28,089 nt of DNA from the IMG/VR virus record IMGVR_UViG_3300013005_000131, positions 1 to 28,089 of that record. One strand, given 5' to 3'. This document shows, in pieces, positions 3,209 through 19,433 of the stretch; position 1 is the stretch's first letter; every line of letters begins with the position of its first letter. Source of the stretch: a virus. A program made the translations under genes and the position numbers. Below the pieces are notes generated by a model. That model saw only the letters and a list, made by a program, of their open reading frames with translations. It was not told where the DNA came from and did not search any database.

Positions 3209-6200
3209 TTAGGTTAATAGTCGAAGCATCTTACTTAACTCAGAGCTTATTTGGCTCTGGTTAAGGAAATCTCCTCCGGCCATATAGGAGCGTAGTCCTT
3301 CGGTAGCGACGTCCGCGTCCTCTTTACCGATCTTAGCCTCCACCCTCATAATCATGTCATCGACAAGGTCACGTAGGGCAGGAGGTAGATCGCTAAATCT
3401 TACCTTTGTAGCGTCTGCTCCAAAAGGTAAAGGTAGATTGGCGATTGTCTCGCCTAGAGCACGTGCGCTCTCACGCACGTTAGTTAGAGCCTGTGGGTTA
3501 AGAGCTCCAGAGTCGATACGGTCAATGAGTCCGATAACATCTGTTGCAGAGCGTGCAGCCTCAATGTAATCACCTGAGTTGCCCAGCCCTTCAGCCTCAT
3601 TAACCTTGTCAAGAACGTTTTGTAGACCAGAATCGCCAATATCCTGCTTTAGTCGAGCAAGAACTGTGCGAAACTTACCTTTAGCATCACGCGGTTGAGT
3701 CTTGCCAGAGACGTATTTAGCCTCTGGTTCACTGGACTCAACCGCTAATGCTTTTCCCAGGTCGTTTGTTTCCTCTTCTGCGGCTGCAACTAAAGGAATA
3801 CGTGAACGAAGACCTTCAACTGCAAAGCTAATCTCCTCTGAGGACATTGCCTTCCACTTTTCAGGGATGAGATCCGCACGGTCAAGAACGCGAGCGCGCT
3901 TCATGATGTGACGACGGATTGCCGCACGCTTTGAAGGCTTGCCACGTCCGTAGGCTTGGATTGAATCCTTTAATGAATCAACGTTTGTGATTGGGTAGGA
4001 TCCGTCTGGAAGAGCTAGACCCTTCTTTGCAAGCTTCTGGCGTACCTCACGTGAGATGTAGCCAAACCCATCCTCGTAGTCTTCTGTTGGAAGAACACGA
4101 GATGAAAGCTCAGTTATTTGAGCTTGAAGCTCTGACCTTCTTTTTGCACGAATATCGGCAAAACGCAGGCGAGCGTCATCAGCTTTGATTGAAAGCTCTG
4201 TTAGTTCTAACTGCTCAAGTTTTTGTACACGAGCAGCAAGTTCTGACACAGGGTCACTCTTCATCTTAGCCAGAGTGCTTGCGCCAGCGGCAACAAGTGC
4301 CATAACCTGTCCTGATGCGACTCGGGCACGAGCAATAGGGAACCCAGGGACATTTACCTGGCAAACCGCTACTAGCTCAAGGGCACCCTTAATTGGGCGC
4401 CAGTCTCCTGAAGGAGCTGATGCGCGAAGGGCACGGATTTGCTCCGGAGTTGCGCTAGGGCGTAGTGCTCCAGCAACCCAGATGCCATAGGCATCTTCTC
4501 CAGCATGAACATCTGATACAGCAGATCCTGTGTCGTCGTAGTGACGAGCAGCTGCTGCGGCGCTTGCCTCAAGTGATGCATGACCACCGGCAAGTGTTAG
4601 TTGACCTACAGGAACATCAGTTCCGTCGTCAGTGCGAACTACTCCTGTGTGGAAGTAGGCATATTTGCTCTTTGAGCGTGGTGGCTTAGTTCCATACGCT
4701 AGTCCAATGTGATCTACATGCCATGCAGCAATGTGACCAAACACCTGACCTTCATCTGTAACTGTAAGCGGTGTTGCTTTTTTAAGTTCTGGATTTGCAA
4801 ACCAGCTCTTTGGTGGGGTGACGGGGATTGCTCCAGCAACGAAACCGCATGCGACTAGCGACGCTGCTTCTGCCGGATCCACATCTTCCACATAGACTCC
4901 GTCAGGAATCACATCATCCTCCTGTATCTCATTTTCTTCCTCAACGAGGAAAATCTTGCATTCTTGGAATGCAGGCTTAGGCACCATAGTAACTCCCATA
5001 ACGCGTGCCTTAGTAATGTCCATTTTACCATTACCAACTTTACCTGGCTTATCTTCTCCAGCCTTTAGTTCTTCTTCTTGTGCTTCAAACATATCCATGT
5101 CGGCTGAAACTCCACGGATAAAACCTTCACGAACTAGACGTTCGGCTTCCTTACCGTATTCACCAGTATCAAACACGCCCGTGGCGTTTCCGATACCTTG
5201 CTCAACGCGTTCCATGCTTTCAATACGGCCTACGACTACAGACCCTGCATGGCCTTCGCCTGTTTTGATCTGCCACATCAATGGAAGTGGTAGCTCGCGC
5301 AGGTTAATTGCATCTTTTCTAAACTTACGGCCATCACCTGACTCGATTCCTTCAGGGATAACAAGAGGAATCACGAACTTGGCGCCTGGCTTTTCGTGCC
5401 CTGCTGCAACTAGGCCCATACGAGAACGAGCCTCGTTTGCCCGAGCGGATAGCGCTGCTCTTTCAATCATCTCTTCAGAGCTTACAACAACATCGGTGCT
5501 AAAGGAGTTACGTCCTCTTCCTTTTCTACCGTAAAGTTGACGATGTTCCTTGTCACCTGTCCACATTCCGGTCATTTCTTTATGACGGAGTGAGCAGTAG
5601 CCTTTTGCACGTGGACCCATGTACTTTGAAAGTTGACGCACGCAACGTGTCCAGTCACCTGCAGTGTTCCAGCGAATCTTCATTCCGCCCTTACCGATAG
5701 TCCAGTAACGACGCAAGGCTTCAGCGTTTCCACGATTACGGTCAAGGCCACCAGCCGCAGTTAGCGTTGGTCCCCATAGAACAGTAAGAATATGGTCTAC
5801 ATCTTCAGAGACGTAGATAGACGCTGTAACCGTGTTTGTGTCAATCTGTGTTAATACATCCTGCAGCGTCTCACTGTCAAGAGGCACAACTGGCGGAGGC
5901 GTCGCAGAGTTAAGGTCTGAGATGATGCCTTCATCACGAACCCACTCAGCTTCAACTCGCTTGTAAGCCATTGGAAGATTTGATTTAGAGCTAGCAGGCA
6001 CTAGTGCAATTAGGTCCATCACAGCTCGAGGATCATCTGGAGAAACAAGAGCTAAAAACAACGGCTGAACGTCAGAGTTGTCTGGTGTTAGTTCAACAGC
6101 AGCAGCTGAGGACATCATTCCTGATGCTCTAGTTACTGGCTGATACCAAAGACGATTTGGATAGGTAGTCTCACCAGTTTTCTTGTTTACAATTTTTTTA

Positions 6201-7921
6201 TTTAGCCAGGACTTAAGAAGAGGGTGATCATACGCATCGAGAGTAAGCGTTTTGCCTGTCATCTTTAAGATGTCAGCGCCCTTAGTGCCAGAGATATCTG
6301 GTGTACCAGCTCTATCAAGAGGAGTTGCACCTGCTGGAGCCTTGGTTGGAGTCTGCGCAGATGGTTTTGGCGCTCCTGGAACAGTTGCTCCTGGTTGCGC
6401 AGTAATAGAAGAGCCTGGCGCTGCTGGCGCAGGCGTATTTAACGGCTTAAACTGGTCTCGTTGCGATTTAACCCACGCTGGCCAGTTATTAACAATCTCG
6501 GCCATATCACTTGGGCGTAACGCAGGTAAAGTTCCAGGAATTTGAACGTTTGGACGGTCAATCGGTGTACGTGGCTGTGCAAGTATCCCTGTTGTGTCAA
6601 ACGCAGGAGTGTCAACAGTCTCTCTTGAGATCGCGCCAATGTACTTATCAACCTTTTCAGTTGATTGCGCTGGCACATCAGCGGTTGTTCCGTTATCAAA
6701 TTGAATTTTAACTGTGTTAGACTCAGGGTTAATTGCGCGGATTGTTCCGACGCCGTTTTGGACGTCACCACCGACAACAACACGAGATCCTTGTGACGCA
6801 AAACGACCTGACGCATCACGAACTTGACGCGCTGCGTTCTCAGAGCGCTCTTCAGGCGTGTACTTGCCATCTCCTTCAGCAGGAGCAGCAGGTGCTGTTG
6901 GTGCAGCAACCATCGCGCTGTCGACATAGTCCCAGTCAACCTCATTCATTGCGCGTGCAACTAGGTGAGCCTCGTCATAGTCAATGTCTTCAACAGAAAC
7001 ATATCTGTCAGGGTTTTGTTGTAGTCGTGCTGAGATAATTATTGCTGAGTCTGGGTCAATTACAACGTGCGACTTCTCAACGTAGTCATCTACATCGTCA
7101 AGCTCACTATCGTATAGATAAACGTCTCCGTTGTATAAACCTAAGTCGTCCCAGCCTAAGCCGTCCCAGACGTAGACGCTTCCATCAAAATCAATCTTGT
7201 AAAGACGGTCCATACCTGTGCCGTCAAGTCGTACTCGAGCAAGAAACTCTGGTGCAGTCATTGCTGGCTTCTCTTGAGCTTCCTTAAATGCATCTAAGTC
7301 AGAGGTATAAAGACGTGGTGCGTCATAGTCACTAATATCCTGCTCATAACCAGGAAGAACATAGCCATCAGCAGTTAGGGATTTTTTGTTTTCGCGTTCT
7401 ACGATTGCTTGCGCCCAGCGCCATCCCGCGTCGCCGCCCCAGAGAGCCCACGCAATACGCCCACGAGAAGGAAAGCCCTTTTCACCTGGCTGGTATCCTT
7501 GCGCCTTCTTATCAATCTCATGACGAGGAAAATACTTCGCAATATGACGGACCTTTTCGATCCCGATCTGCCCTCCCTTAGCAAGAGTGCGCGCGGTGTT
7601 GAGCCCAACTGGTGTACCTCCTCGCTTATGTTCTTTTCTCCATTCAATACCTTTTTTAGCTTCAACCTGAACTCCGCGAGGAATAGTGTACATACGTCCT
7701 GAAGCAACAATAACCTTAATTTCTAGGTCTGCTAAAGCACCTTGTGCAAGATCAAACATTGCCTGAGGCATCTCGTCAGAGCAAGGCGTCCAGCTGCTAG
7801 ATGAAAACATCTGCTCAGCGTTACCAGTCTCGATGACAAGGTTAACGTTCTTGTCTATTACAACAGCGTTATCCCCACTTTGGAATAAAACTAGTGAGTC
7901 ATTAACTCCAAGTATATTCAC
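3209..7921 (-). CDS. Capsid maturation protease fused into a 1570-aa multidomain virion protein
   Basis: Starts at a GTG directly after the TAA of the upstream gene, with GAGGAAG as ribosome binding site. Order of domains: a conserved phage segment at about 77-178 (EWRKEHKRGG ... FPSRGRIAWALWGGD); an RDASGRF motif and SH3/KOW-like module at about 367-420; a Pro/Ala linker; a segment at about 754-795 (RCVRQLSKYMGPRAKGYC); a prohead-protease-like domain at about 835-1000 with H891 in GEGHAGS and S939 in GVSADMDMF, the probable catalytic pair; the beta-rich domain at 1040-1210 usually attached to actinophage capsid proteases; a coiled coil at about 1220-1275; a basic segment at 1287-1353 (LAKKGLALPDGSYPI ... 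RADLIPEKW); and a C-terminal domain after RDAKGKF. Such proteases are usually far shorter. It should cleave the capsid delta domain and perhaps neighbouring virion proteins. Protease assignment is confident; the roles of the other parts are unknown. Confidence 0.85.
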   Translation of the reverse strand: MNILGVNDSLVLFQSGDNAVVIDKNVNLVIETGNAEQMFSSSSWTPCSDEMPQAMFDLAQGALADLEIKVIVASGRMYTIPRGVQVEAKKGIEWRKEHKRGGTPVGLNTARTLAKGGQIGIEKVRHIAKYFPRHEIDKKAQGYQPGEKGFPSRGRIAWALWGGDAGWRWAQAIVERENKKSLTADGYVLPGYEQDISDYDAPRLYTSDLDAFKEAQEKPAMTAPEFLARVRLDGTGMDRLYKIDFDGSVYVWDGLGWDDLGLYNGDVYLYDSELDDVDDYVEKSHVVIDPDSAIIISARLQQNPDRYVSVEDIDYDEAHLVARAMNEVDWDYVDSAMVAAPTAPAAPAEGDGKYTPEERSENAARQVRDASGRFASQGSRVVVGGDVQNGVGTIRAINPESNTVKIQFDNGTTADVPAQSTEKVDKYIGAISRETVDTPAFDTTGILAQPRTPIDRPNVQIPGTLPALRPSDMAEIVNNWPAWVKSQRDQFKPLNTPAPAAPGSSITAQPGATVPGAPKPSAQTPTKAPAGATPLDRAGTPDISGTKGADILKMTGKTLTLDAYDHPLLKSWLNKKIVNKKTGETTYPNRLWYQPVTRASGMMSSAAAVELTPDNSDVQPLFLALVSPDDPRAVMDLIALVPASSKSNLPMAYKRVEAEWVRDEGIISDLNSATPPPVVPLDSETLQDVLTQIDTNTVTASIYVSEDVDHILTVLWGPTLTAAGGLDRNRGNAEALRRYWTIGKGGMKIRWNTAGDWTRCVRQLSKYMGPRAKGYCSLRHKEMTGMWTGDKEHRQLYGRKGRGRNSFSTDVVVSSEEMIERAALSARANEARSRMGLVAAGHEKPGAKFVIPLVIPEGIESGDGRKFRKDAINLRELPLPLMWQIKTGEGHAGSVVVGRIESMERVEQGIGNATGVFDTGEYGKEAERLVREGFIRGVSADMDMFEAQEEELKAGEDKPGKVGNGKMDITKARVMGVTMVPKPAFQECKIFLVEEENEIQEDDVIPDGVYVEDVDPAEAASLVACGFVAGAIPVTPPKSWFANPELKKATPLTVTDEGQVFGHIAAWHVDHIGLAYGTKPPRSKSKYAYFHTGVVRTDDGTDVPVGQLTLAGGHASLEASAAAAARHYDDTGSAVSDVHAGEDAYGIWVAGALRPSATPEQIRALRASAPSGDWRPIKGALELVAVCQVNVPGFPIARARVASGQVMALVAAGASTLAKMKSDPVSELAARVQKLEQLELTELSIKADDARLRFADIRAKRRSELQAQITELSSRVLPTEDYEDGFGYISREVRQKLAKKGLALPDGSYPITNVDSLKDSIQAYGRGKPSKRAAIRRHIMKRARVLDRADLIPEKWKAMSSEEISFAVEGLRSRIPLVAAAEEETNDLGKALAVESSEPEAKYVSGKTQPRDAKGKFRTVLARLKQDIGDSGLQNVLDKVNEAEGLGNSGDYIEAARSATDVIGLIDRIDSGALNPQALTNVRESARALGETIANLPLPFGADATKVRFSDLPPALRDLVDDMIMRVEAKIGKEDADVATEGLRSYMAGGDFLNQSQISSELSKMLRLLT

Positions 7922-8980
7922 TTACTCTTCCTCCGTAATAGGTCCACCAACAACCCACGCGTTACATGTACGAGATGCCGCACACTTAAAATCTAAAGCT
8001 TCGCAGTACCCAAGCTCTGCCGCGTCAACCGCGTCCCAGGCATTATCACTTGAGGATCCGCCTTGCTCAATACCAGTTGTAATACAGTCAAGCATCTTAG
8101 GAGTGCGAATAAACATTACGCAGTTTCCACATGTGCTCTTTCGTGCCTCGTCGCCAGAGACTCCCCAGCGTGTTCCTTTATCGTCCCAGAACTCATCGTT
8201 TGGTTCATTTGGATTTAGCGGGCCGTAGCCTGCGTTCTTAATTGCATATTCACGATTTTCAAGATTAACAACAATGTCCTGTGTTGCAGGAGGGCAATCA
8301 CCATCTGCAGCTGCGGTAATAGGCTCAGACTCTTCGTCCTCGTATTGTGCAGTGTCTTCTGTGGTAAGAGTTTCATCATTACCCTCAGCCATATCGTAGA
8401 TCTTTATAAACTTAGGTGTTACCTCATGAACCTCTAGCCCGTCGATTGACTCGTCGTCTGCAGGCAGCTTAAACCATCCGCTATTTGAGCGGGCGTACAT
8501 TCCAGCCTCTGATGAGTAAATTAGGTACTTAACCTCTTGAGATTCAGTGTCAACTGCTGCATAAAGATTATCCTCTGGAGCAGGCGCGTTGGGAGTAAAC
8601 GCTAGTTTTACATCTGCCATGTACATCTCCTCTAGTGCCTCAGCAGGTACGGTAGTCCTAAGGCTCGAAGCCCATCTACCGTCTGTGTCTTGAAATGCTC
8701 GTACTGTATAAATCTTACCGTAACTTGAGAAAGTTATGTCGCCTCTCGACTCATTTACACGTACATCTTCAGGCCGAACAAGTGGGTAGTAACGTATGCC
8801 GTCAATAGTTGAGGCTCCTGCGTGAGGCTTGTCGTCAATCATCTCGACGTGAACTCCGTAGACCGGTTGAAGCATGACCTGCCCATCTTCACCTTTAACT
8901 GTCATAACCGCAGGACCGGCTAGAAAGCCTTCGTCAGTCTTCCACGCTGCCTCATCTGTAAACTTCAACTTATTTATCAC
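7922..8980 (-). CDS. Virion-region protein with C-terminal Cys-rich (metal or Fe-S like) domain
   Basis: This 352-aa protein starts at a GTG whose GTGA overlaps the TGA of the giant upstream gene, and it ends directly against the GTG of the protease gene, so the three are translationally coupled. Residues 1-200 look beta-rich, followed by an acidic linker. The C-terminal 110 residues carry C284, C287, C299, C326, C333 and C339 in the pattern CGNC ... C ... GYC ... DFKCAASRTC, followed by a conserved AWVVGGP. This spacing suggests a zinc or iron-sulphur site, like the small Cys-rich domains found in phage virion proteins. Placement between portal and protease suggests a head-associated role. 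The exact function is unknown, and metal binding is inference. Confidence 0.7.
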   Translation of the reverse strand: MINKLKFTDEAAWKTDEGFLAGPAVMTVKGEDGQVMLQPVYGVHVEMIDDKPHAGASTIDGIRYYPLVRPEDVRVNESRGDITFSSYGKIYTVRAFQDTDGRWASSLRTTVPAEALEEMYMADVKLAFTPNAPAPEDNLYAAVDTESQEVKYLIYSSEAGMYARSNSGWFKLPADDESIDGLEVHEVTPKFIKIYDMAEGNDETLTTEDTAQYEDEESEPITAAADGDCPPATQDIVVNLENREYAIKNAGYGPLNPNEPNDEFWDDKGTRWGVSGDEARKSTCGNCVMFIRTPKMLDCITTGIEQGGSSSDNAWDAVDAAELGYCEALDFKCAASRTCNAWVVGGPITEEE

Positions 8981-11900
8981 GACTTAGACTCTCCTGTTCC
9001 GGTAATGATAACCTCCTCGATAGGACGTCCTCCGATGTAGTTAATTCCTCTAGCCTTTAGCCCCTCAATGACGCCTACATGAACTTCCTTTGAGACTACC
9101 ATCACGTCAAGATCTTCCCAGGAGAGTCTTTGCTTAAACATAACCTCGTAGGCTCCAACCTGCGCAGCAGATATAACGTCCTTGTTCTTTGAGCGCTTGC
9201 CAAAGGCATCGGTGTAGTTTGCATAGAAGTCCAAACGTTGATACACCTTCTTAGGGTCAAAGTATAGTGTAGGCACCCAGTCGGTAGTTCCGTATCTCTT
9301 TCTATCAGCACTTTTTACCGGGCGAGTAAACACATAGTCAGCTCCGCCAGTTCCAACGTCAGCTTGACTGGACTGACCGTGAACTCCAATACCTTCTGTC
9401 CAGCGTGTTGTTGTTGAGAGAAGGCCTCCCTGTGGGTTATCAATGAATCCTACTATCCAGTCTGTCATTGTCTTTACTTTTTCCTCATCGCTCATACTGT
9501 ATTGAAGAACGCCAGGATTACGAAGGCCGTGACTCATAGCCTCTGGCTTGCCAGTTGCCTCCCAGATCTTTAACGCGCCTTCCTCAGAAAGGCGATATTC
9601 AATTCTCCCCGATGGGCCTGTCGTTACGATAACGTCGTCTACAGTTAGTCCCCACTTGTCCTTTACCTTTTCAAGACTTTCTGTTCTTGCCGCACCCTTA
9701 GGGTTTGTGTTCGCATCTGTCTTAGCATCAAAGATACTCATCAAGCGATTTTCAATAAGAACCTTTGCGTCTGCCGGTGTTGCAGGACGCACCTGACTTA
9801 CTCCTGCTAGAGCTAGTGCGTTAGCAATCTGGTCATCGGTAGCACCTGCTGGCGCTTGAATCTGCACCGTGTTGTGAAAGGCACGAGCTGGAGCTCCACC
9901 GTACCCTTTTGAGAATGTATCAGACGCATCTGGGTTAGCACGATGAATAGAGATAACAATTCCATCTTCTGTGGTAATCTTGTAAGTTCTTCCTATTGGG
10001 CTCTCATAGGCAGCCTCGGAAGCAGACAGATCTCCTACTCCGTCCTTGCCAACGGTTATTCTTGGAATACGCAGTTTGGTGACCTCTATACCTGCATCTG
10101 CTCTTTCCTGCTCAGTCATGCTTGCAATCTCGGCAACCTTTTTCTTACCGGCCCAGTTTGTAAGCTTAAACTTTAGCTGAATGCCGTCTACACCTTCAGG
10201 GTTACGCACGTGCATAACTCGAACATCTAGGTCTTCAATTGAGTCTGCGTCAACAGCAGCAGAGGCTCCACGCATTGCTGATTTTTTATCACTTGTGTCA
10301 AGAGCCTTCGCTACTGCGCCTGGCAGGGAAGGTACTGCCTCAAAGCTAGATAGTGACCAGTCAGCGGGGCTGTCTACAATCACAGGCTCAGCGCCCGCAC
10401 CAGTTGCCTTTGTTGTAGACTTCTTAGCTGTAGGTCCCTTAAAGTTTTCATCAAGTGTATTTGTAGATTTTAGAGTCTTACCTGAGCGCCACTTTACGAC
10501 GCCGTTTCCAAAATCTACTTGCGCGTAGTTATCCTTATTGACTTTTAGCACGGTGCCAATCACACCATCTTTGTCTGCAACCTTTACCCCTGCAAAGATC
10601 TGACTGCCAGTAGAGTCATCAATTGCTGCAAAGCCGTCAGGTACTTCAATTTCATCAGATGCGTCTACGTCAAGCTCTTCTAAAGGAGCTGAGTCAGTTC
10701 CATAAGGCTCGGATTTGTTTTGAGATATCTTTTCAAGTAGCGCGTCGTTTTCTTCCTTGGTTGGTTGACGCCACTTAAATACCTCAAGGCCATTTCCACC
10801 AGGCTCAAAGAAATCAGGTTTAGCCTCAGGCGTATAGTTTGTCTTCTTCTTTGCATCAATTATGTATACGGTTTCGCCATCAGGTGTTGCAGCAATCATT
10901 CCATCTTTCTCATGAACCGCAAGAATCTTTCCACCCTCTGGCATTCCATATGAGAAAAGCTTAACTAGTTCGTTTGCTGCATCATTAAGAATAGGTTCAT
11001 CTGGGAAAGGAGTATTTGGAGATGGCTTGGTTGTTGCTGGCGTTGCTTTTTCTCCAGCTGCAATTTCATCGCTAATATCGACTATGCCAGGAGCGACTAT
11101 GTCGGTAATTGCTGAGATGACGTCTGCATCTTCTGCCTCAGACCAGTCAACAAGGCCTTCCTCATCTATAGCATCACGTATCTGATCTGCCTTTTCCTTA
11201 GAGATCTTAGTGCCTTGAGCGTCTAGTAGATCTAGTATCATCTTCGAGTGAGCTTGAATTTTTTTATTATCGGTGTAGATGTCACCGTAGAACTCTTCAG
11301 GCACAAGATCTTCATCAAGAACTGACTTGTACTCTTTTGCAAAGTCGTCCATCTTGTCAAGCGGTACCTCTACTGTAATTTCATCAACGCCATCAACATC
11401 TAACTTAGAATCAACTACATACGGCAAAACTTCTTCGTATCCAGCAGGTCCGTTACTATTAGGATTAAAAGGACGAGTCCCGTCGTGAACAAACGACACG
11501 CGAACTTTCTTTCCGTCTTCAGTTAGTTGCGCGGTTGGCTCAAACTGACCAATGTCATCTTGCGGAGTTTCTGGTGTTGGAGTTTCTGGAGCTTCTGGCT
11601 CAGGGGACTCCGGAGCCTCAGGGGCTTTTGGGCCTTCGCCACCACCGCCGTCGTCGCCATCAATAACTGTTAAATACTTTGTGCTGAATACCACAGGCTT
11701 CTTACCGTCTGGCATCTTAACCCAAACGTATCCAGTGTTCTTGTCGTAGCGTGAGAACACTCCTTCAAGAACAACACCTTTCTTTTCATAGCGAATCTTT
11801 GCGCCTGGCTCGATAGGTGTTCCGTTTTTATCCTTATAAGGATTTGTTACAGATTCAGTTGCAACTGGCTCTGGAGCTTCAACAGGCGCTTCTCCTACAG

Positions 11901-14900
11901 CAGGCTCTGGCGCATTCTTCTTGTTCTCTTCTTCAATATACTCCTGAAGACTTATAAGCTGCTGATCAATATCATCAATGTTATTGAGCAACGCTATGTC
12001 GTCGCCAATTTTACCAAAGTCCGCTAGGTCGCGTAGCTCGCCGATCACGCCTGGTAGCTCTTCATCTGAGATCTCCCCATTACGCCAGTCAACAAGCACC
12101 TTGTCGATCTGATCCGCTACTGCTTGAAACTTCTTGCGAGCAGACGCGAGCATATTTTCATCAAGTGCGTACTCTTCTGCCCAGCTGCGAGCGTTATCGA
12201 GACGACTGTCAACCTCTGCGCTCTTGCCTTCTGGCGTTGAGACTGCCTCTGGGTCTGCGTCCTGCTCTTTGCTAATATCTGCGTTGTCAACTACAACAGA
12301 TGTGTCCTCACTAAGTAAATCGTAGCGCTCAAGAATAAACTGGCGACGAGCCTTTAGCTTATCCTTTATCTCTTGCCCTGCTTCTGGGTCTGTGACAATT
12401 CCATCAACCATCGAGTCAATGTCATCGTTAGATATCGCAAGAAGCTTACGGGCTGATTCCTTTTGTTGCTCATCGGTCATTGAGCCAAACACTGCAGCAG
12501 ACTGTGGGTTCATGCTAGGGTCACGTAACGTATCTAGTTCATTGACCTCGTTACCAAACAATGATCCCTTTGGTTTTCCCATAGCGCGGAACAAAAGCGC
12601 TCCACCTGGGTCTACACGGACTGGATTGCCACTGCCATCTGACATTACGTTATCAAATGCTAATCCTGCAACGTCCCAGTTTCCAAGCCACGCATCAACT
12701 GCAAAGCCTTCTTGCAACTTAGCAAGATACTCTGGGTCATTTAATTTTTGCTGTAGGTCCTGCTTGGAATCGATGATATCTGGAGAGAACGTCATCTTAA
12801 CTCCGTCGTCACCACTGCCAATTCCAATATCTGCTGCGTCAATTCCTAGAAGTTTATAGAACGCGGAAGCAAGAACTTCATTCTGTGCGTGTAGGTCGGA
12901 CTTAGGCTTCTTTACGTAGTAACGGTTTCCTTCAGCGTCCTCGTAGAAGCCGCCTTCGTTAGAACCAAGTTGTGGTCCAACCTTCTTCCAGCCTTCCATG
13001 TCGTACTCTGTTGAGAGTTCTTCAACTATGGCGTTAACTGGGTTGTCTGCACTTTGTTCTACAGGCTCGGCTTCTTCACTAGACGCTTGTGCATCTGGGT
13101 CTGCGTTTGCGATGTCATCAAGCAGCGCGTTTGTGTCAACACCTTGAATCTGTAAAGCATCACGAACAAGTTCTACGGCAACGGTAACTTCCTTGTCGTT
13201 ATCCCACTCGAGAATAACTTCACCAGAACCGTTTTCAATTGCTTGTCTAAATGTTTCAGTGAGAGCATCACGGTCATAGCTGCGTGCAACAACGTCAGGC
13301 TTGTCTTCAAAATCCTCAGGGAAATCTTGTTCTGCTCTTGACTCGTATGGAGCAGGATCAATCTTATGGTAACCTTCTGGCATCTCTGGAGATGCGTTAT
13401 CCTTTATCAAAAGTTCATTGTATGAAGTATCAAGTCCCTCAAGCACAGCATCACGCTTTGACAGCATCTCAATTTCAACCTTAAAGACTTTTCTTCCGTC
13501 TGGAGTATCTGTCTCCTTAACCTCTACTATCTTAAAGTTTCCTAGCATTCTGTGCTCTTGCTCGTTAAAGGTAGATATCGTCGTTAGGTCAACGGATCTT
13601 CCTTTGTTAGGCTTTACTGTAAAGACAATTGACGTCTTATCAGTTGACCTAGAAAGCGCACCTGCAAAAATCGAGGCGTTGATGTCACTTGTTGAGAACG
13701 AACGTGCGTCAAATGCTAAAACTTCACCATTTCTAATTTTTTCTATAAGAGGGCTGTCGTTTGGTACCTGCAAGCCTCGGTGCAATGACACCTGGTTGTA
13801 TCGAGAGGACTCAGTCATAAGTCTAAAGAAAGCGCCTGCAAATGATGTATCACTGTCGATAGATTCTCTTCCATCGATTAAAGCCTGCTTTGACTTAATA
13901 AGATCATTTATACTTCCATTTTTGTCAAAGAACTCTTTTACCTCTGACCACTCAGCAGAACCGTTATACTTTTTAATTGCAGCGTAGACGCCGTTGGCTA
14001 GTCTAGTCTTTTCAACGCCATCACTAATTCCCTCATCAAGAGCAGTGACGGTTGCCCATAAAGCTTGGAATGCTTGCTTCTCTTCAGGAGTAGCGTCTGG
14101 GTTAAGTGCGCCTCCGATGTAGTCGTCTAGTAGTTTTTCAAGATCCTCGGAGATGACGCTGTCATTGTCATTTACAGGATTTCCCTTTGCTTTTCTAATT
14201 GCATCTGCAAGTTCTACAATCTTAGGGTTTGGCTCGCCATTTCTGTTGAGCTCCATTAACTGTGAGACAAGTGCAGATCCCGAATCTGCAAGGGCAACAT
14301 CAACATTTGCTCTTGCGATAGCCTCTGCGTCCTCTGGGTCAATTGCGTCAAGCAGTGGAGTTTCAGCTTGAACGTTCTCCTCCTTGCGAAGAGACTTAAG
14401 AAGATCTTGATTTTTACTTTCGCCTAAGCCTGTGTCGTATAGTTGTGCAAGTAATAGGTCAACGTCATACCCTTGCTTCTTAAGCGCGAGATAGATTGCC
14501 TCTACTGGAACCCACTCTTCACCGCTATTGAAATCAAGAGCGCCAACACCTAGACCGACAGGCTTAGCTACTGGCTTCTTTTTCTTAGGGCCAGGCTTGC
14601 CTTTCTTTTTAGCTGGCTCGCCATCTTCATCAAGCTCTTCGTCTTCGTCATCTTCAAGAAGATCTAGCGCGTAGTCTTTTTTACCAACGACGCCTTGGAT
14701 AAATCCATCAACAAGTGCATCGGTTCCAAACTTGTTTGCAATAACTTCTGGGTCATCTGAGAAGTCAGAGCTCATCTCATCGTCAACGCGACCTTCGGGT
14801 TCAAAGCTTTCTGGACTCTGCAACTTCCATGCACCTTCAGGAGGAGTAAGTTTTGAGACAACAGATTCTTCAGAGGTGTTAACAACTTCTGGCTGTGCTG

Positions 14901-16611
14901 CAGGAGCCTCGGGAAGTTCTGCAATAGCTTCATCATCTGCACGAGGAACAGGAATAGTTTCTTTAAACCAAGGATCTTCTGGGTTGTGCTGTAGACTCTT
15001 AGAGTCGCCTGCCCACTCAACAACTCGAGGAATCTGCGCTTCAGCTTCTTCCCAGGTATCATACTTGCCAGTTCCGTTTTCATTCTTGTTAAACCATTGA
15101 GCACGATGGCCAAAACTAATCTTTCCTTCATCGTCAATTTCTGCAATGATGTCGACTTGGCCTTCTCCGTCTGCACTTGGCACAAGCTTAGTAAATGATC
15201 TAATTGGAAGAACATTATCAGTTGAGTACTTACTGATTCCGACTTCCCAGCCTTCTGGAATATCGCGACCTTCAATATCCTTGCCCTGTTCAAGCATCTC
15301 TTCAAACTTATCAACGTCCTCATTGTACTTCTTTTTCTTTTCTACAAAGAATGCTTCATCCTTTTCCTTCTTAGCTTCTAGCTCGTCGAGAGTAGCCTTT
15401 GCCGAAGGATTAAGCTTGTCGTAAGGATCTTTTTCAGATCCTGGAAGTACGTCAGCGTTTTCTGGTGCAGAAATGATACGCTTAAACTTGTCGTAGTCTT
15501 TCTGGTCTGCGTTTGCAAGATCCTGGATTTGCGCCCAGTCATCAACCTGTTCGCCAACCTGTGTACCCTTATCGCCGTTCTTGTCCTTGCGGAACAGCGT
15601 AAGCTTTCCATCTGCCTCGTCAACGATGTAGTCATCGTCAGATCCAAATGACCCATCTTCGTTTTTCTTCCAACCGGCAGGTGCGTCTAGGCGGGCAGCA
15701 ACAAGATCATCCTTGCTAGGAATACTTGCTCTCTTGTCAAGAATAGACGAAAGCTTTCCCTTAACTTTTCCTACAGCGCTGTCAGGAAGCAAAGCCTTAT
15801 ACGCCTGAGCGTTACTTGATTCAATTGGATAGATTCCATCAGGGATGTTTGCGTCACCCTTAACTTGCACGAGTCCACGGTTACCGTCTGTGCCAATAAA
15901 CTTTCCATTGATAGGAACGTTATTGCCGCCGATGTTAACTCTAAACCCGATACCACGGCCCATCTCAATCCAGCGTCCTAAACGGTCACGCCACTGCAGA
16001 CGCGCACGAGCGCTACGGGCAGCAGATGTGTTTCCAGCACCAAAACTAAATGCAGCGGTGAGAGCTGATAAGTAGATCTCACGAGGAACTGCTCCTGCAA
16101 CAAGAACCTGTAGTGAGGCGATTGCGTGTGAGTACTCTACTGAGTCTTTGTCATAGAAGTACGCTGCTGCGATAATTTCTCTTACATCCTCGTCAACGCG
16201 TGGGTCTGCTGCGATCCAGCGAGAACGAGCATGACGCAAGGCTGAGGCTGTCATCACATTAGAGCGAGATGATAGAGGGTGTCCTACTGGAAGTAGATCT
16301 CTATATGATACCTGTGAGTCAGTTGATATCTCTCCGGTGCATGCAAGACTAATAAAGGATGAAACTTCCTTATAGGCAACAAACTGACGAGTCTTTGTCT
16401 CTAGGCTTGCTGTCTTTGCTAGTGAGCGCTCTGCAACTAAAAACACAGCCTGTTGAGAAACGCGACGCTCTGCAGGTACCTTTGCATTTTCAATTGCCGC
16501 AAGATTGCGTAGCGACTGACGAAACGACACCTTGTTACCACGAACGTTTGCCTTAGGAACAACTTTAACCTTTTCTCTGTGTGAGATAAGTTCGTTAATT
16601 AGCTCGTACAT
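8977..16611 (-). CDS. Giant (2544 aa) virion-associated multidomain protein with ADP-ribosyltransferase and HipA/PI4K-like kinase domains
   Basis: Begins at an ATG abutting the upstream TAA, with AAGGAG 11 bases before. Visible parts: an N-terminal helical region; RDRLGRW near 208 followed by an SH3/KOW-like module; Asp/Glu/Lys-rich linkers; an approximately 70-100 residue repeat at 620-724 and 1102-1170; an ADP-ribosyltransferase domain with R945 (SLHRGL), STS 973-975 and ExE 1017-1019 (NEQEHRML), the R-S-E signature; a kinase-like domain at about 1190-1430 with K1234 (YYVKKP), NWD at D1313, FDN at N1321 and VDPGG at D1334, the HipA/PI3-4-kinase layout; SH3/KOW-like modules at about 1600-1655 and 2003-2050; a Pro/Glu linker at 1656-1695; and a conserved C-terminal module at about 2395-2535 (GLLSTTTRW, GQSSQAD, GGADYVFTR, EVMFKQ). 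It sits where MuF-type or ART head proteins often lie. I infer head packaging and injection, as for T4 Alt; no targets can be named. Confidence 0.85.
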   Translation of the reverse strand: MYELINELISHREKVKVVPKANVRGNKVSFRQSLRNLAAIENAKVPAERRVSQQAVFLVAERSLAKTASLETKTRQFVAYKEVSSFISLACTGEISTDSQVSYRDLLPVGHPLSSRSNVMTASALRHARSRWIAADPRVDEDVREIIAAAYFYDKDSVEYSHAIASLQVLVAGAVPREIYLSALTAAFSFGAGNTSAARSARARLQWRDRLGRWIEMGRGIGFRVNIGGNNVPINGKFIGTDGNRGLVQVKGDANIPDGIYPIESSNAQAYKALLPDSAVGKVKGKLSSILDKRASIPSKDDLVAARLDAPAGWKKNEDGSFGSDDDYIVDEADGKLTLFRKDKNGDKGTQVGEQVDDWAQIQDLANADQKDYDKFKRIISAPENADVLPGSEKDPYDKLNPSAKATLDELEAKKEKDEAFFVEKKKKYNEDVDKFEEMLEQGKDIEGRDIPEGWEVGISKYSTDNVLPIRSFTKLVPSADGEGQVDIIAEIDDEGKISFGHRAQWFNKNENGTGKYDTWEEAEAQIPRVVEWAGDSKSLQHNPEDPWFKETIPVPRADDEAIAELPEAPAAQPEVVNTSEESVVSKLTPPEGAWKLQSPESFEPEGRVDDEMSSDFSDDPEVIANKFGTDALVDGFIQGVVGKKDYALDLLEDDEDEELDEDGEPAKKKGKPGPKKKKPVAKPVGLGVGALDFNSGEEWVPVEAIYLALKKQGYDVDLLLAQLYDTGLGESKNQDLLKSLRKEENVQAETPLLDAIDPEDAEAIARANVDVALADSGSALVSQLMELNRNGEPNPKIVELADAIRKAKGNPVNDNDSVISEDLEKLLDDYIGGALNPDATPEEKQAFQALWATVTALDEGISDGVEKTRLANGVYAAIKKYNGSAEWSEVKEFFDKNGSINDLIKSKQALIDGRESIDSDTSFAGAFFRLMTESSRYNQVSLHRGLQVPNDSPLIEKIRNGEVLAFDARSFSTSDINASIFAGALSRSTDKTSIVFTVKPNKGRSVDLTTISTFNEQEHRMLGNFKIVEVKETDTPDGRKVFKVEIEMLSKRDAVLEGLDTSYNELLIKDNASPEMPEGYHKIDPAPYESRAEQDFPEDFEDKPDVVARSYDRDALTETFRQAIENGSGEVILEWDNDKEVTVAVELVRDALQIQGVDTNALLDDIANADPDAQASSEEAEPVEQSADNPVNAIVEELSTEYDMEGWKKVGPQLGSNEGGFYEDAEGNRYYVKKPKSDLHAQNEVLASAFYKLLGIDAADIGIGSGDDGVKMTFSPDIIDSKQDLQQKLNDPEYLAKLQEGFAVDAWLGNWDVAGLAFDNVMSDGSGNPVRVDPGGALLFRAMGKPKGSLFGNEVNELDTLRDPSMNPQSAAVFGSMTDEQQKESARKLLAISNDDIDSMVDGIVTDPEAGQEIKDKLKARRQFILERYDLLSEDTSVVVDNADISKEQDADPEAVSTPEGKSAEVDSRLDNARSWAEEYALDENMLASARKKFQAVADQIDKVLVDWRNGEISDEELPGVIGELRDLADFGKIGDDIALLNNIDDIDQQLISLQEYIEEENKKNAPEPAVGEAPVEAPEPVATESVTNPYKDKNGTPIEPGAKIRYEKKGVVLEGVFSRYDKNTGYVWVKMPDGKKPVVFSTKYLTVIDGDDGGGGEGPKAPEAPESPEPEAPETPTPETPQDDIGQFEPTAQLTEDGKKVRVSFVHDGTRPFNPNSNGPAGYEEVLPYVVDSKLDVDGVDEITVEVPLDKMDDFAKEYKSVLDEDLVPEEFYGDIYTDNKKIQAHSKMILDLLDAQGTKISKEKADQIRDAIDEEGLVDWSEAEDADVISAITDIVAPGIVDISDEIAAGEKATPATTKPSPNTPFPDEPILNDAANELVKLFSYGMPEGGKILAVHEKDGMIAATPDGETVYIIDAKKKTNYTPEAKPDFFEPGGNGLEVFKWRQPTKEENDALLEKISQNKSEPYGTDSAPLEELDVDASDEIEVPDGFAAIDDSTGSQIFAGVKVADKDGVIGTVLKVNKDNYAQVDFGNGVVKWRSGKTLKSTNTLDENFKGPTAKKSTTKATGAGAEPVIVDSPADWSLSSFEAVPSLPGAVAKALDTSDKKSAMRGASAAVDADSIEDLDVRVMHVRNPEGVDGIQLKFKLTNWAGKKKVAEIASMTEQERADAGIEVTKLRIPRITVGKDGVGDLSASEAAYESPIGRTYKITTEDGIVISIHRANPDASDTFSKGYGGAPARAFHNTVQIQAPAGATDDQIANALALAGVSQVRPATPADAKVLIENRLMSIFDAKTDANTNPKGAARTESLEKVKDKWGLTVDDVIVTTGPSGRIEYRLSEEGALKIWEATGKPEAMSHGLRNPGVLQYSMSDEEKVKTMTDWIVGFIDNPQGGLLSTTTRWTEGIGVHGQSSQADVGTGGADYVFTRPVKSADRKRYGTTDWVPTLYFDPKKVYQRLDFYANYTDAFGKRSKNKDVISAAQVGAYEVMFKQRLSWEDLDVMVVSKEVHVGVIEGLKARGINYIGGRPIEEVIITGTGESKS

Positions 16612-17700
16612 TTACTCGGTCTCCTTAACTGGCAAAAGGTCTGCGTCCTTTGACCCGTAGAGTGCAGACGCAAGAACTGCTGCTCGATCAAATGGAGACT
16701 CGTTGTCGCGTATAGCACGTAGCCAGGTTGCGCGTAGCGCTGGAACAATTTCGTAACCTTGACCAGATAGTTCCGCCATCGCAAGGATTGCATGCTCTGG
16801 TGAGTGGTAATCTTCTTCATTCTGTAATTCAACGTATAGCTCCTGGCTAGCATAGAGTGATGCAATGATTGAGGCATCACCTTTACTTGAGCGTGGGTGC
16901 TTTGCTGGCAGTAAATCATTGTCCTGCTTGTAATTTGCATTTGCAGGGCGACCGCTCTTTAACAAGCGCAGAAACGCATTGACGCGAGCAAATGCCCAGC
17001 CGTCTCTTGTCATTCCTGGACGATGTGAACTTGAAAACGCACCAGCGCCACGACGATACACAGCCTTAAGCATTCCAAGAGTTGCCTTACGACCTTCAGG
17101 CGCTTTCTCATTATGCTTCTTTACCTTCTCACGAAGCGTTGCCTCTGTTCGAGCGCTAAACACGATTTTCTTTCCACCCTTAGCAGATCCCTTAGGATTT
17201 CTCTTTGAGCCGTAGATGCGATCTTTCTTTGGAGCAGGACGAGACGCAGCAGCTGTAATCTGACTGTCTTCAACTTGAACAACACCATCAGGGATAACGG
17301 CAAAACGGCACTTGCCGTCATCTTCAATTGGCTGTGCAATAATCTTGCAAACTCCAGGACCTTCATAAAGAACACAGTTGATGCACTTAACACCAATTTC
17401 CTTATATTCGTTTTCTGCGGCAGGCGTGTATCCTGCCCAGATACCTGTTCGGTCCTCGTTAAACTTTCCATGCTCTTCAGCAATCTCTAAAAGTGCCTTA
17501 GCAAGATCTTGTTCTTCAGCAACGATGATTCCTGCAGATGTAAGCGAGTCTGCAAAATCCTTTGGTACGCAGTTGGGAACCATGTTCCCGTTCTTACCTT
17601 TCTTCATACCAACTTGCTTATACCCGTCCCAGCAAGGACCTTTACCATCTGCTGTTATTGGCGTGTATGAAGCAACAAGATCAACTGGCTCAAAGGACAT
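16612..17700 (-). CDS. Phage head-region protein with Cys4 site and conserved basic domain
   Basis: This 362-aa protein follows the portal gene by five bases, with a GAGG ribosome binding site overlapping the portal end. Three conserved parts are visible: residues 25-47 (GYKQVGMKKGKNG ... VPNCVP), a short motif seen in phage head proteins; C106, C109, C118 and C131 in a CINC ... C ... C pattern with an adjacent RFAVIPD, similar to the small Cys4 domains of phage structural proteins; and residues 160-272 (IYGSKRNPKGSA ... YRRGAGAFSS ... DNDLLPAKHP), a strongly basic domain that recurs in actinobacteriophage head modules. The C-terminal 90 residues look helical. The role is probably structural or DNA-facing inside the head. 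A metal ligand set is inferred from Cys spacing only. Confidence 0.7.
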   Translation of the reverse strand: MSFEPVDLVASYTPITADGKGPCWDGYKQVGMKKGKNGNMVPNCVPKDFADSLTSAGIIVAEEQDLAKALLEIAEEHGKFNEDRTGIWAGYTPAAENEYKEIGVKCINCVLYEGPGVCKIIAQPIEDDGKCRFAVIPDGVVQVEDSQITAAASRPAPKKDRIYGSKRNPKGSAKGGKKIVFSARTEATLREKVKKHNEKAPEGRKATLGMLKAVYRRGAGAFSSSHRPGMTRDGWAFARVNAFLRLLKSGRPANANYKQDNDLLPAKHPRSSKGDASIIASLYASQELYVELQNEEDYHSPEHAILAMAELSGQGYEIVPALRATWLRAIRDNESPFDRAAVLASALYGSKDADLLPVKETE

Positions 17701-17705
17701 TACTG

Positions 17706-19433
17706 TTACACCTCAGTAGTTGGAGTTGGCTCTGGTGTCTCTGTTGGCGTCTCTGTCTCCGCTGCTTCTGTTGCAATTTGCTGTGGTCCCTTAAGAAGTC
17801 GTTCAACCTCTGGCGGAATTGGTGCAAGTGATGTTGCCTGTGATGCAAGACGAGTTGCCTTCATAACGTCAGGAGCAACTGCTGCAAGCATTGCCTCTGT
17901 AAGCTCAGGTGTGATTGCACCCTTCTCTCTAAGCAGACGTAGCGCAACCTCTGTAGGAGTTGGGCCGTCCTGCTCTGTAAATCCGTGTGATCTGCGCCAT
18001 GCATCTCCAGAGATAACTCCCCGGTCAAATCCAGCATCTGCGTCGGCGGCGCGGTCATTGCGCGTAGCCACCTGTGATGGGTCATACCATACGCAGATGC
18101 GTTCTACCTGAGCTGGGTCGAACCCATTTGCAATCAGGTAAGGACGCAGATAAACAACTGTAATAGCGTCTGCAATCAGAAGCATTAACGGTTCGATATG
18201 TGCTTTGTATAGTGACTCATCAATTTGAAGAGCATTGGAATACTTAACGTTTGCAAGACCTGTAACGATGTCCTTTGGGACATCAAGGCCTTGTAGAATT
18301 CTTTCTAGAACACGATCTGCACGTTGTGCAAGCGCTGGGTCAAACGAGCGCTCAAACTTGAATTGCTTAATCTTGTCGCCAAGTTCTGCTGGACCACGAA
18401 TAATAAGTGGAACAACCGCAGATGCTGAATCCTCGTCACGAATAGGCGTTGTCATCGCATCCATAAGTTGATCCTCAAACTCGTCAGCCGCCTCCTCAGG
18501 AGTATAGGCTTGATTCATTGAGTCATCATCATCATACGGATAGTCAGGATCTGGTGAACCTGCAACAGAAAGCCCGTCCGGAAGATACAAGGCGCCAGCA
18601 TTTAGACGTGAGCGCGCTGTAGCACGGAACGTTCTGTTGAGGAGAAGTAGTTCTGAGCAAAGATCTAACAAGCCACGTAAGCTTGAGTCTGCTTCATCAG
18701 AGTAGCGTGGGTGCGCTCGCCAGACGCGACCGATAAACGCATTGTTTGGAAGTATAATTTGACCAGGTTGTTTTTGTCCTGTGTAGGAACCTGTTTCACG
18801 TCGAGGAATAATTGTGTACGCGCCCTTTTGGTCAATCTGAATCTCATCAACTGAACGGATATCCCATGTCTCAGGAAGTCCTTGACCTTGACGCTCTGGA
18901 ATTTGAACAAGGTAGCACTCGCCAGCTACTGCAAGGTTGAGTGCTGCATCACGGAGAAGACCAGCCTGACCGCCGTATGCTGAGTCAAGACGCACGATTG
19001 CACGCTCTGCCGCTGAGGCAAGACGCTCATCAATGAGAGGACTGTTGCGAACTGGAAGTGGAGGCTCTGCAGGATTATCAATTACTGCCGCAAAGATACG
19101 AATACGAGATATTACCGAGCCAACTAGACTGAAGGCATATTTAATTTCACCGATTGCGTCGTAGTATTCCCACGCCTCAGACTGCCAGGCATTTGATCCT
19201 GATGTTCTGCGACTACGGAATTGCTCGGCCTCGCCTTTGTCATTAAGACGAAGTTGAGATGCTGCTGCAGTAAGTCCACGAGGAGCTGAGTATGCGACAG
19301 GTGATGCAAAACCAGGAATGGTTGCTATCGAGCTAAGGGAAAGAGCAGGTGAGTTAATTGCACGACGAGTAGCTGCAGCCGACCTAGGGCGCTGTGATCT
19401 GTTGCCGTTTGAGTCACGGCTGAATACTGCCAC
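17706..19433 (-). CDS. Phage portal protein
   Basis: This 575-aa protein forms the presumed dodecameric ring at the capsid vertex through which DNA enters and leaves. It starts at a GTG with GAGGAG upstream. Support: length in the usual portal range, place after the terminase genes and before the protease and capsid genes, and typical portal sequence features. These include the early YAFSLVGSVISRIRIFA segment, the central alternation of helices with WRAHPRYSDEADSSLRG and ELLLLNRTFRATARSRL, and the later LDVPKDIVTGLANVKYSNA segment before the wing/clip region. The last 40 residues are Pro/Glu/Thr rich and probably disordered. The family is recognised by overall pattern rather than a catalytic motif. 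Confidence 0.87.
   Translation of the reverse strand: MAVFSRDSNGNRSQRPRSAAATRRAINSPALSLSSIATIPGFASPVAYSAPRGLTAAASQLRLNDKGEAEQFRSRRTSGSNAWQSEAWEYYDAIGEIKYAFSLVGSVISRIRIFAAVIDNPAEPPLPVRNSPLIDERLASAAERAIVRLDSAYGGQAGLLRDAALNLAVAGECYLVQIPERQGQGLPETWDIRSVDEIQIDQKGAYTIIPRRETGSYTGQKQPGQIILPNNAFIGRVWRAHPRYSDEADSSLRGLLDLCSELLLLNRTFRATARSRLNAGALYLPDGLSVAGSPDPDYPYDDDDSMNQAYTPEEAADEFEDQLMDAMTTPIRDEDSASAVVPLIIRGPAELGDKIKQFKFERSFDPALAQRADRVLERILQGLDVPKDIVTGLANVKYSNALQIDESLYKAHIEPLMLLIADAITVVYLRPYLIANGFDPAQVERICVWYDPSQVATRNDRAADADAGFDRGVISGDAWRRSHGFTEQDGPTPTEVALRLLREKGAITPELTEAMLAAVAPDVMKATRLASQATSLAPIPPEVERLLKGPQQIATEAAETETPTETPEPTPTTEV

Follow-up and report, generated by a model that had tools for sequence, protein, structure and literature searches.

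The virus record IMGVR_UViG_3300013005_000131, whose 28,089 bases were analyzed in full and are referred to here as the window, raises the question of what a single protein of 2544 amino acids (aa) does when it is encoded in the midst of phage head genes. An earlier note on this DNA had described an uninterrupted 7.6-kb frame at positions 8977-16611, between portal and protease genes, and had assigned ADP-ribosyltransferase (ART) and kinase domains to its product. We found that positions 8977-16611 form a single open reading frame (ORF) of 2544 aa with an ATG start on the minus strand, which the earlier note had not mentioned; the plus-strand translation of the same positions is riddled with stops. 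The portal gene (17706-19433) lies on one side of this frame and a prohead-protease fusion gene (3209-7921) on the other, with one gene intervening per side. We consider the product, here named P0001, to be probably a head-packaged multi-effector protein (the "polyvalent" type) of an actinobacteriophage-like virus, which would deliver an ART and a kinase to the host.

Relatives of P0001 were identified in 10 viral contigs with best-segment identities of 72-100%; several of these are incomplete, and one matches P0001 exactly along its full length. In Actinomycetia phage DSL-LC01, a 3289-aa version of P0001 occupies the equivalent location. Every measured region of P0001 gave a ratio of nonsynonymous to synonymous substitution rates (dN/dS) of 0.04-0.19 against five relatives, and P0001 is therefore evolving under purifying selection; together with the relatives in 10 viral contigs, these ratios indicate that P0001 is not a chance ORF.

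Predicted enzyme folds of P0001

The structure prediction that the earlier note had asked for was run with AF2 on residues 830-1440 of P0001, using a 56-sequence alignment of relatives (alignment A4), and both an ART fold and a kinase fold were matched. The model had a mean pLDDT (predicted local distance difference test) of 88.4 and a pTM (predicted template modeling score) of 0.55, values that indicate two well-modeled domains whose position relative to each other is uncertain.

The ART domain corresponds to residues 835-1062 (positions 13426-14109, minus strand). Foldseek aligned it to the PDB structure of the ART Vis (E 2e-5, probability 1.00), and the other ARTs matched were Certhrax, ExoS, C3, and HopU1. 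In the VIA structural comparison, HopU1 scored highest (Z 11.5, 4.5 Å over 167), followed by PDB entry 6dre, titled "ADP-ribosyltransferase toxin/immunity pair" (Z 9.9), and Vis (Z 9.7). Alignment placed the candidate catalytic arginine at R945, within LHRGL (codon at 13777-13779, minus strand), and the ExE motif at E1017-Q-E1019 (13555-13563, minus strand). Among 37 aligned window-type ART hits, a set that includes near-duplicates, R945 is arginine in 34 and lysine in three, E1019 is present in all 37, and E1017 is glutamate in 35 and aspartate in two. The ExE motif is usually taken as a sign of arginine specificity. An hhalign comparison of the window ART to 12 such domains from relatives yielded a probability of 87 (E 4e-6); the arginine and ExE positions aligned, and the STS motif was off by one column. 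The Pfam profile ADPrib_exo_Tox (PF03496) did not match the window ART or any of eight members of alignment A2; proteins of relatives pass its cut-off. Based on the predicted fold and the conserved catalytic positions, the ART call of the earlier note held, and the model clearly predicts an R-S-ExE mono-ART fold for residues ~835-1062.

The kinase domain corresponds to residues 1195-1440 (positions 12292-13029, minus strand) and is a two-lobed fold with a complete C-lobe in the predicted model. Foldseek identified CtkA as its PDB match (E 5e-6, probability 1.00), with HipT and LepB also among the kinase matches. In an alignment of 63 kinases that includes the window (alignment A5, from which 18 near-duplicates out of 80 loci had been removed by hand), nine residues are invariant in all 63 sequences: K1234, E1245, N1311, W1312, D1313, N1321, D1334, G1336, and G1337. 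By analogy, K1234, E1245, D1313, N1321, and D1334 are assigned roles in ATP binding and catalysis. The phage family carries the signature DAWLxNWD...DN...DxGG. The kinase call of the earlier note likewise stood, on predicted fold and conserved catalytic positions, and a CtkA/HipA-type fold for residues ~1205-1440 is clear in the model.

The VIA ranking also bears on the substrate of this kinase. CtkA was the closest structure (Z 17.2, 3.2 Å over 217 residues), followed by PI4KII-alpha (Z 13.5), HipT (Z 12.8), HipA (Z 12.1), and LepB (Z 11.7). A fold that targets a lipid or small molecule instead of a protein would be consistent with the presence of PI4KII-alpha and LepB among these neighbors, as LepB has PI4-kinase activity and the name PI3K/PI4K-like is attached to some viral proteins of this fold. 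However, the closest fold is that of CtkA, with HipT and HipA at 12-13, and CtkA, HipT, and HipA are protein kinases; moreover, to our knowledge phosphoinositide signaling is generally lacking in bacterial hosts. We therefore regard a non-protein target as quite improbable.

Searches at the sequence level returned little for these domains. Neither Pfam HipA_C nor HipA_2 matched the window kinase; across the 63 kinases, HipA_C matched weakly in six (best E 0.0013) and HipA_2 in two, NCBIfam gave just two stray matches to single members at E <= 0.01, and PHROGs gave no match at E <= 0.001. Profiles of the three P0001 domains found nothing useful among PDB sequences, the sole lead being LepB at E about 1, which was later supported by the fold. 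The whole of P0001 had nothing significant in Pfam, PHROGs, PDB sequences, or PADLOC. Among viral structures in BFVD, the best five matches to the model (E 5e-18 to 1e-11) include proteins of Gordonia phages Sixama and GodonK; one of the five is named a portal protein and one an ADP ribosyltransferase. Proteins of the haloarchaeal tailed viruses HSTV-2 and HHTV-1 (L7TJZ0 and R4T6E8) matched part of the ART-kinase model at E 3e-5 and 2e-5, the HSTV-2 protein being named PI3K/PI4K-like, and the kinase fold may thus reach archaeal viruses.

The two folds could in principle be catalytically dead, serving as internal head structure or as decoys. The STS motif of the ART is loose: S971-F-S973-T-S975 is present in the window, and positions 974-975 vary widely among the 37 ART hits. 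However, the catalytic positions of both domains are invariant or nearly so, and dN/dS is 0.05-0.14 in both, which makes this explanation highly improbable.

A third enzyme may lie at the C-terminus. The conserved C-terminal module that the earlier note had reported, residues 2085-2544 (positions 8980-10359, minus strand), was confirmed and is kept as far as DSL-LC01. Its model had a pLDDT of 77, and Foldseek found no match for it at E <= 0.001. In VIA, four DarT entries ranked on top (DarT1, PDB 8baq, Z 7.5, 4.2 Å over 155; the three others 5.7-6.0) and the next fold scored 4.5, although a VIA Z under 8 can reflect a merely common arrangement. These matches cover model residues 259-460, that is, residues 2343-2544 of P0001 (8980-9585, minus strand). 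An hhalign comparison with DarT proteins was weak (probability 34); in it, the invariant E2489 (10 of 10 sequences) lands on the conserved DarT glutamate. The DarT profile PF14487 matched none of three records at E <= 10 and did not appear in the Pfam scan of P0001. The N-terminal 258 residues of the module could be assigned no fold: the VIA rows there (START-like proteins and others) had Z <= 4.5 and were not used. The likeness to DarT, which the earlier note did not contain, is suggestive only, and we lean modestly toward a DarT-like ART fold for residues 2343-2544.

Recurrence of the kinase-ART pair and its link to the phage head

The earlier note had considered the combination of ART and kinase unusual, a view that the wider survey did not support: the pair recurs in most of the kinase-bearing phage loci examined. 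The kinase is also present in Yersinia phage fHe-Yen8-01, Enterobacter phage phiT5282EW, Aeromonas phage ST4, Morganella phage Mecenats66, Pseudomonas phage Dolphis, and Gordonia phage Forza. Pfam places an ART C-terminal to the kinase in fHe-Yen8-01 (E 7e-8) and Dolphis (E 1e-7), and in Forza the kinase (gp78) and ART (gp80, Pfam E 7e-18) are encoded by separate genes between the portal and capsid genes. In a scan of viral contigs, the best 80 of 372 kinase relatives were kept and grouped into 54 clusters at 90% identity; an ART was detected in the same ORF in 43 clusters, in a separate ORF at the same locus in three, and not at all in eight. ARTs were scored here with a profile built from these very loci, and an ART in a single member sufficed to count the whole cluster as positive.

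A wider set comprised 114 kinase-domain representatives (63 viral and 51 from bacterial contigs), for which an ART-bearing cluster member was preferred; a few proteins gave two domains. Among the viral representatives, the ART is downstream of the kinase in 28, upstream in 18, on both sides in five, and in another ORF in four, so that 55 of 63 have an ART. The corresponding counts for bacterial contigs are 18 downstream, one upstream, one in another ORF, and 31 with none. We built a tree of 113 of the 114 representatives, leaving out one that was too short. Given its well-supported branches, the label "ART upstream" must have changed at least 9 times and the label "ART downstream" at least 10 times, each change being a gain, a loss, or a missed detection. 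The kinase and the ART have clearly been coupled or reordered repeatedly.

Co-occurrence arising merely because ARTs are common beside such portals was considered and rejected, based on loci anchored on the portal instead of the kinase. Of the best 80 of at least 563 portal relatives, 21 loci (15 clusters) had at least 9 kb downstream. Both domains were found in five of these clusters, the kinase only in one, the ART only in none, and neither in nine (Fisher p 0.002); in these counts, plus-strand ORFs alone were scanned, ART profiles derived from kinase loci may miss lone divergent ARTs, and the kinase-only ORFs (L164 and L165) extend to the end of the available DNA.

Several loci depart from the common arrangement. 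Two (L061:8986-9699 and L062:4400-5113) have a stand-alone 238-aa kinase-only gene with the portal ORF downstream instead of upstream, and in three others (L057, L067, and L224) the protein carries two copies of the kinase domain. Proteins of 2700-3500 aa from Gastranaerophilales/Melainabacteria and other uncultured bacteria (L238, L241, L244, L247, L249, and L251) contain the kinase in another architecture, in which no ART was detected.

The kinase loci are also connected to head genes. Using a portal profile, and leaving out seven loci that repeat contigs already counted, we found that 46 of 73 viral kinase loci carry a portal ORF on the upstream side of the kinase ORF, within 2 kb of it in 39 of the 73. 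In two loci, the portal part is located near one end of an unusually long ORF (L050:5075-7897, 941 aa, and L059:812-4438, 1209 aa, both measured from stop to stop). A genome scan identified 56 kinase loci in bacterial contigs, and nine proteins from such contigs, chosen because the local profile detected an ART, were scanned with Pfam. Three of the nine, from Acrocarpospora, Virgisporangium, and Nonomuraea (L201, L205, and L209), have the architecture Phage_min_cap2-kinase-ADPrib_exo_Tox, and one, from Thioalkalivibrio (L211), has Phage_Mu_F-kinase-ART; in others, the pair is combined with 2H, NUDIX, or WGR domains. Pfam itself recognized the ART in seven of the nine. Upstream of the capsid-fused pairs, a terminase and a portal are encoded in L201 and L211 and a terminase in L205, and nothing was recognized in L209. 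In addition, the relative in Yersinia phage fHe-Yen8-01 is annotated in its record as a "phage particle associated protein." We infer by analogy that P0001 is packaged in the head, and the capsid-fused relatives, the portal and terminase context, and the particle annotation put this on better ground.

An ART and a kinase within a virion might instead act on phage components (each other, the capsid, or packaged proteins), for self-regulation or timing. The occurrence of both domains in one chain or locus in most viral kinase loci examined would fit this, as would the repeated switching of the ART from one side of the kinase to the other, which befits a functional pair. However, the pairs in bacterial contigs ride on minor-capsid or MuF proteins, like effector toxins that, in the text passages of one study, are thought to be delivered (PMC5576092), and passages on T4 Alt provide a precedent for host targets (PMC9503650). 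Action on phage components is thus unlikely.

P0001 might also be made in the infected cell or lysogen and remain unpackaged; it would then serve in exclusion or late takeover, and its position among the head genes would be incidental. DSL-LC01 "appeared to be a lysogenic phage" in the passage by its authors (PMC10611076), and the kinase of L061 and L062 stands alone, both of which would accord with this explanation; however, relatives are fused directly to head proteins, the portal lies less than 2 kb upstream in 39 of 73 loci, and one relative is annotated as particle-associated. We consider an unpackaged P0001 improbable.

A number of observations nonetheless weigh against a head-packaged dual effector. 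Neither domain of the window protein has a significant match in Pfam, PDB sequences, or PHROGs, the STS motif of the ART is loose, and the Pfam scan gives P0001 no MuF or other head domain. Among the 73 kinase loci, 25 lack a recognized portal (for 11 of the 25, the available upstream sequence is shorter than 2 kb), and two have the portal downstream of the kinase. The particle note on the fHe-Yen8-01 protein is a record annotation, for which a literature search gave no underlying paper. The pairing was scored with a profile from the same loci, as stated above, and no ART was detected with the kinase for 8 of the 63 viral representatives and 31 of the 51 bacterial ones, so that in phages the coupling is strong without being universal.

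If P0001 is a packaged multi-effector protein, as we favor, it would be made late alongside the head genes, its N-terminal part would take it into the prohead, the neighboring prohead protease may trim it, and it would be delivered with the DNA into the next host. There, the R-S-ExE mono-ART would add ADP-ribose from NAD+ to one or more host proteins, the CtkA/HipA-type kinase would phosphorylate one or more host proteins, and the DarT-like C-terminal domain may contribute a third NAD-dependent activity. The recurrence of the kinase-ART pair, together with its occasional fusion to capsid proteins, suggests that some viruses carry kinases into infected cells. More tentatively, and with some doubt, these proteins might represent widespread, unnamed virion-delivered dual effectors, in which head-packaged CtkA/HipA-type kinases are functionally tied to an ART. 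The two would modify one shared host target or work in a cascade, where one mark might, for instance, license the other, and the lineage of the window would add a DarT-like enzyme as a third.

Remaining regions of P0001 and neighboring genes

The N-terminal region (residues 1-370, positions 15502-16611, minus strand) is the candidate virion-docking part. Residues 24-275 are shared with DSL-LC01 and residues 181-344 with a giant protein of a Microbacterium phage. Within this region, the mini-motif RDRLGRW (residues 208-214, 15970-15990, minus strand) is of a kind common to the protease fusion and many sister effectors. P0001 contains the general form R[DN]xxG[RK][FW], and the prohead-protease fusion has it at two places (~6820 and ~3691, both on the minus strand). 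Of 80 kinase ORFs, counted without deduplication, 37 have the motif, compared with 8 of 731 other ORFs of 150-600 aa on the plus strand, a comparison not corrected for length. The motif could be a head-docking or processing tag.

The internal duplication that the earlier note had reported is present but short. Region D1 (residues 590-760, 14332-14844, minus strand) holds the first copy and region D2 (residues 1085-1190, 13042-13359, minus strand) a second, partial copy; residues 591-641 align to 1078-1125 with 35% identity (E 5e-4, profile E 7e-6). Two spacers that resemble KOW/SH3 domains by eye only are located at residues 1600-1650 (11662-11814, minus strand) and 2003-2047 (10471-10605, minus strand).

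In the reading direction, the gene order is terminase, portal, a 362-aa gene, P0001, a 352-aa gene, the prohead-protease fusion, and the major capsid protein, and all of these genes are on the minus strand. The terminase large subunit gene is at 20674-22071, and the portal protein matched phrog_776 (E 8e-111). The 362-aa gene (16612-17700) contains a DUF5824 stretch, and part of its product is similar to residues 19-133 of P0001 (E 3e-4), which hints at a shared head-associated module or a duplication. The 352-aa gene downstream of P0001 is at 7922-8980. The prohead-protease fusion is 1570 aa long and matched phrog_18402, "head maturation protease" (E 8e-59); its Peptidase_S78 match (E 0.006) is under the Pfam cut-off. 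This protein has long extra regions, and stretches of it match PHROG models named portal, protease, and virion structural protein. The major capsid protein gene (1057-3075) has 71.6% DNA identity over 1057-2262 to the annotated major capsid protein gene of DSL-LC01, and its product has a long Ala/Glu-rich N-terminal extension that appears scaffold-like by eye.

Known systems and significance

Like polyvalent proteins, P0001 unites several effector domains in a single chain, and its gene lies among those of the virion. In the available text of their description (PMC5512222), polyvalent proteins are very large and multi-domain, ARTs are their commonest predicted protein-modifying domain, kinases are reported, and those in a virion context are predicted to be packaged and injected. 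Whereas the polyvalent ART active site is given there as H-Y-D, that of P0001 is predicted to be R-S-ExE. The polyvalent kinase has lost its C-terminal subdomain and occurs mainly in (pro)phages of Verrucomicrobia-Chlamydia and Bacteroidetes (PMC5512222), whereas the P0001 kinase is predicted to be a full CtkA/HipA-type fold. As the P0001 model keeps the C-lobe, identity of the two kinases was rejected by comparison with the text passages describing the polyvalent kinase.

MuF toxins and MuF-VIP2 fusions are head-module effectors with ART domains in the passages describing them (PMC5576092, PMC7302621), and four of the kinase-ART relatives are fused to Phage_Mu_F or Phage_min_cap2. These passages mention no kinase beside the ART (in the text of PMC5576092, "kinase" and "HipA" each occur 0 times), and P0001 has no detected MuF domain. 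T4 Alt is likewise an ART of a tailed phage and acts at the start of infection; according to the passages on it, Alt is packaged in the head and its host substrates include the alpha subunit of RNA polymerase (PMC9503650), whereas P0001 adds a predicted kinase and possibly a third domain. Helicobacter CtkA and HipA/HipT are like the P0001 kinase in fold, with catalytic positions matched by analogy; however, the window domain has no significant match to them at the sequence level, and the phage kinases carry a signature of their own and form part of giant proteins encoded in the head region. The DarT DNA ADP-ribosyltransferases lead the fold list of the P0001 C-terminus, but with a Z of just 7.5 and with PF14487 unmatched.

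Within the text passages searched in the open-licence PMC literature, we found no paper describing an ART-kinase pair in phage virion proteins, nor any account of kinase delivery by a phage; the main text of the Mecenats66 paper (PMC9503643) contains "ADP-ribosyl" and "kinase" 0 times. As far as that literature was searched, a CtkA/HipA-type kinase paired with an ART is undescribed in phages. Head-delivered ARTs are already known, and kinases in injected polyvalent proteins were predicted earlier, in the available text of PMC5512222.

The kinase family described here lacks a good match in Pfam, NCBIfam, and PHROGs and is repeatedly joined to ARTs and sometimes to capsid proteins, which makes phages Forza, Dolphis, and Mecenats66 isolates that bear on kinase injection. 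If true, the proposed role of P0001 would provide a function for many giant "hypothetical" genes that adjoin portals.
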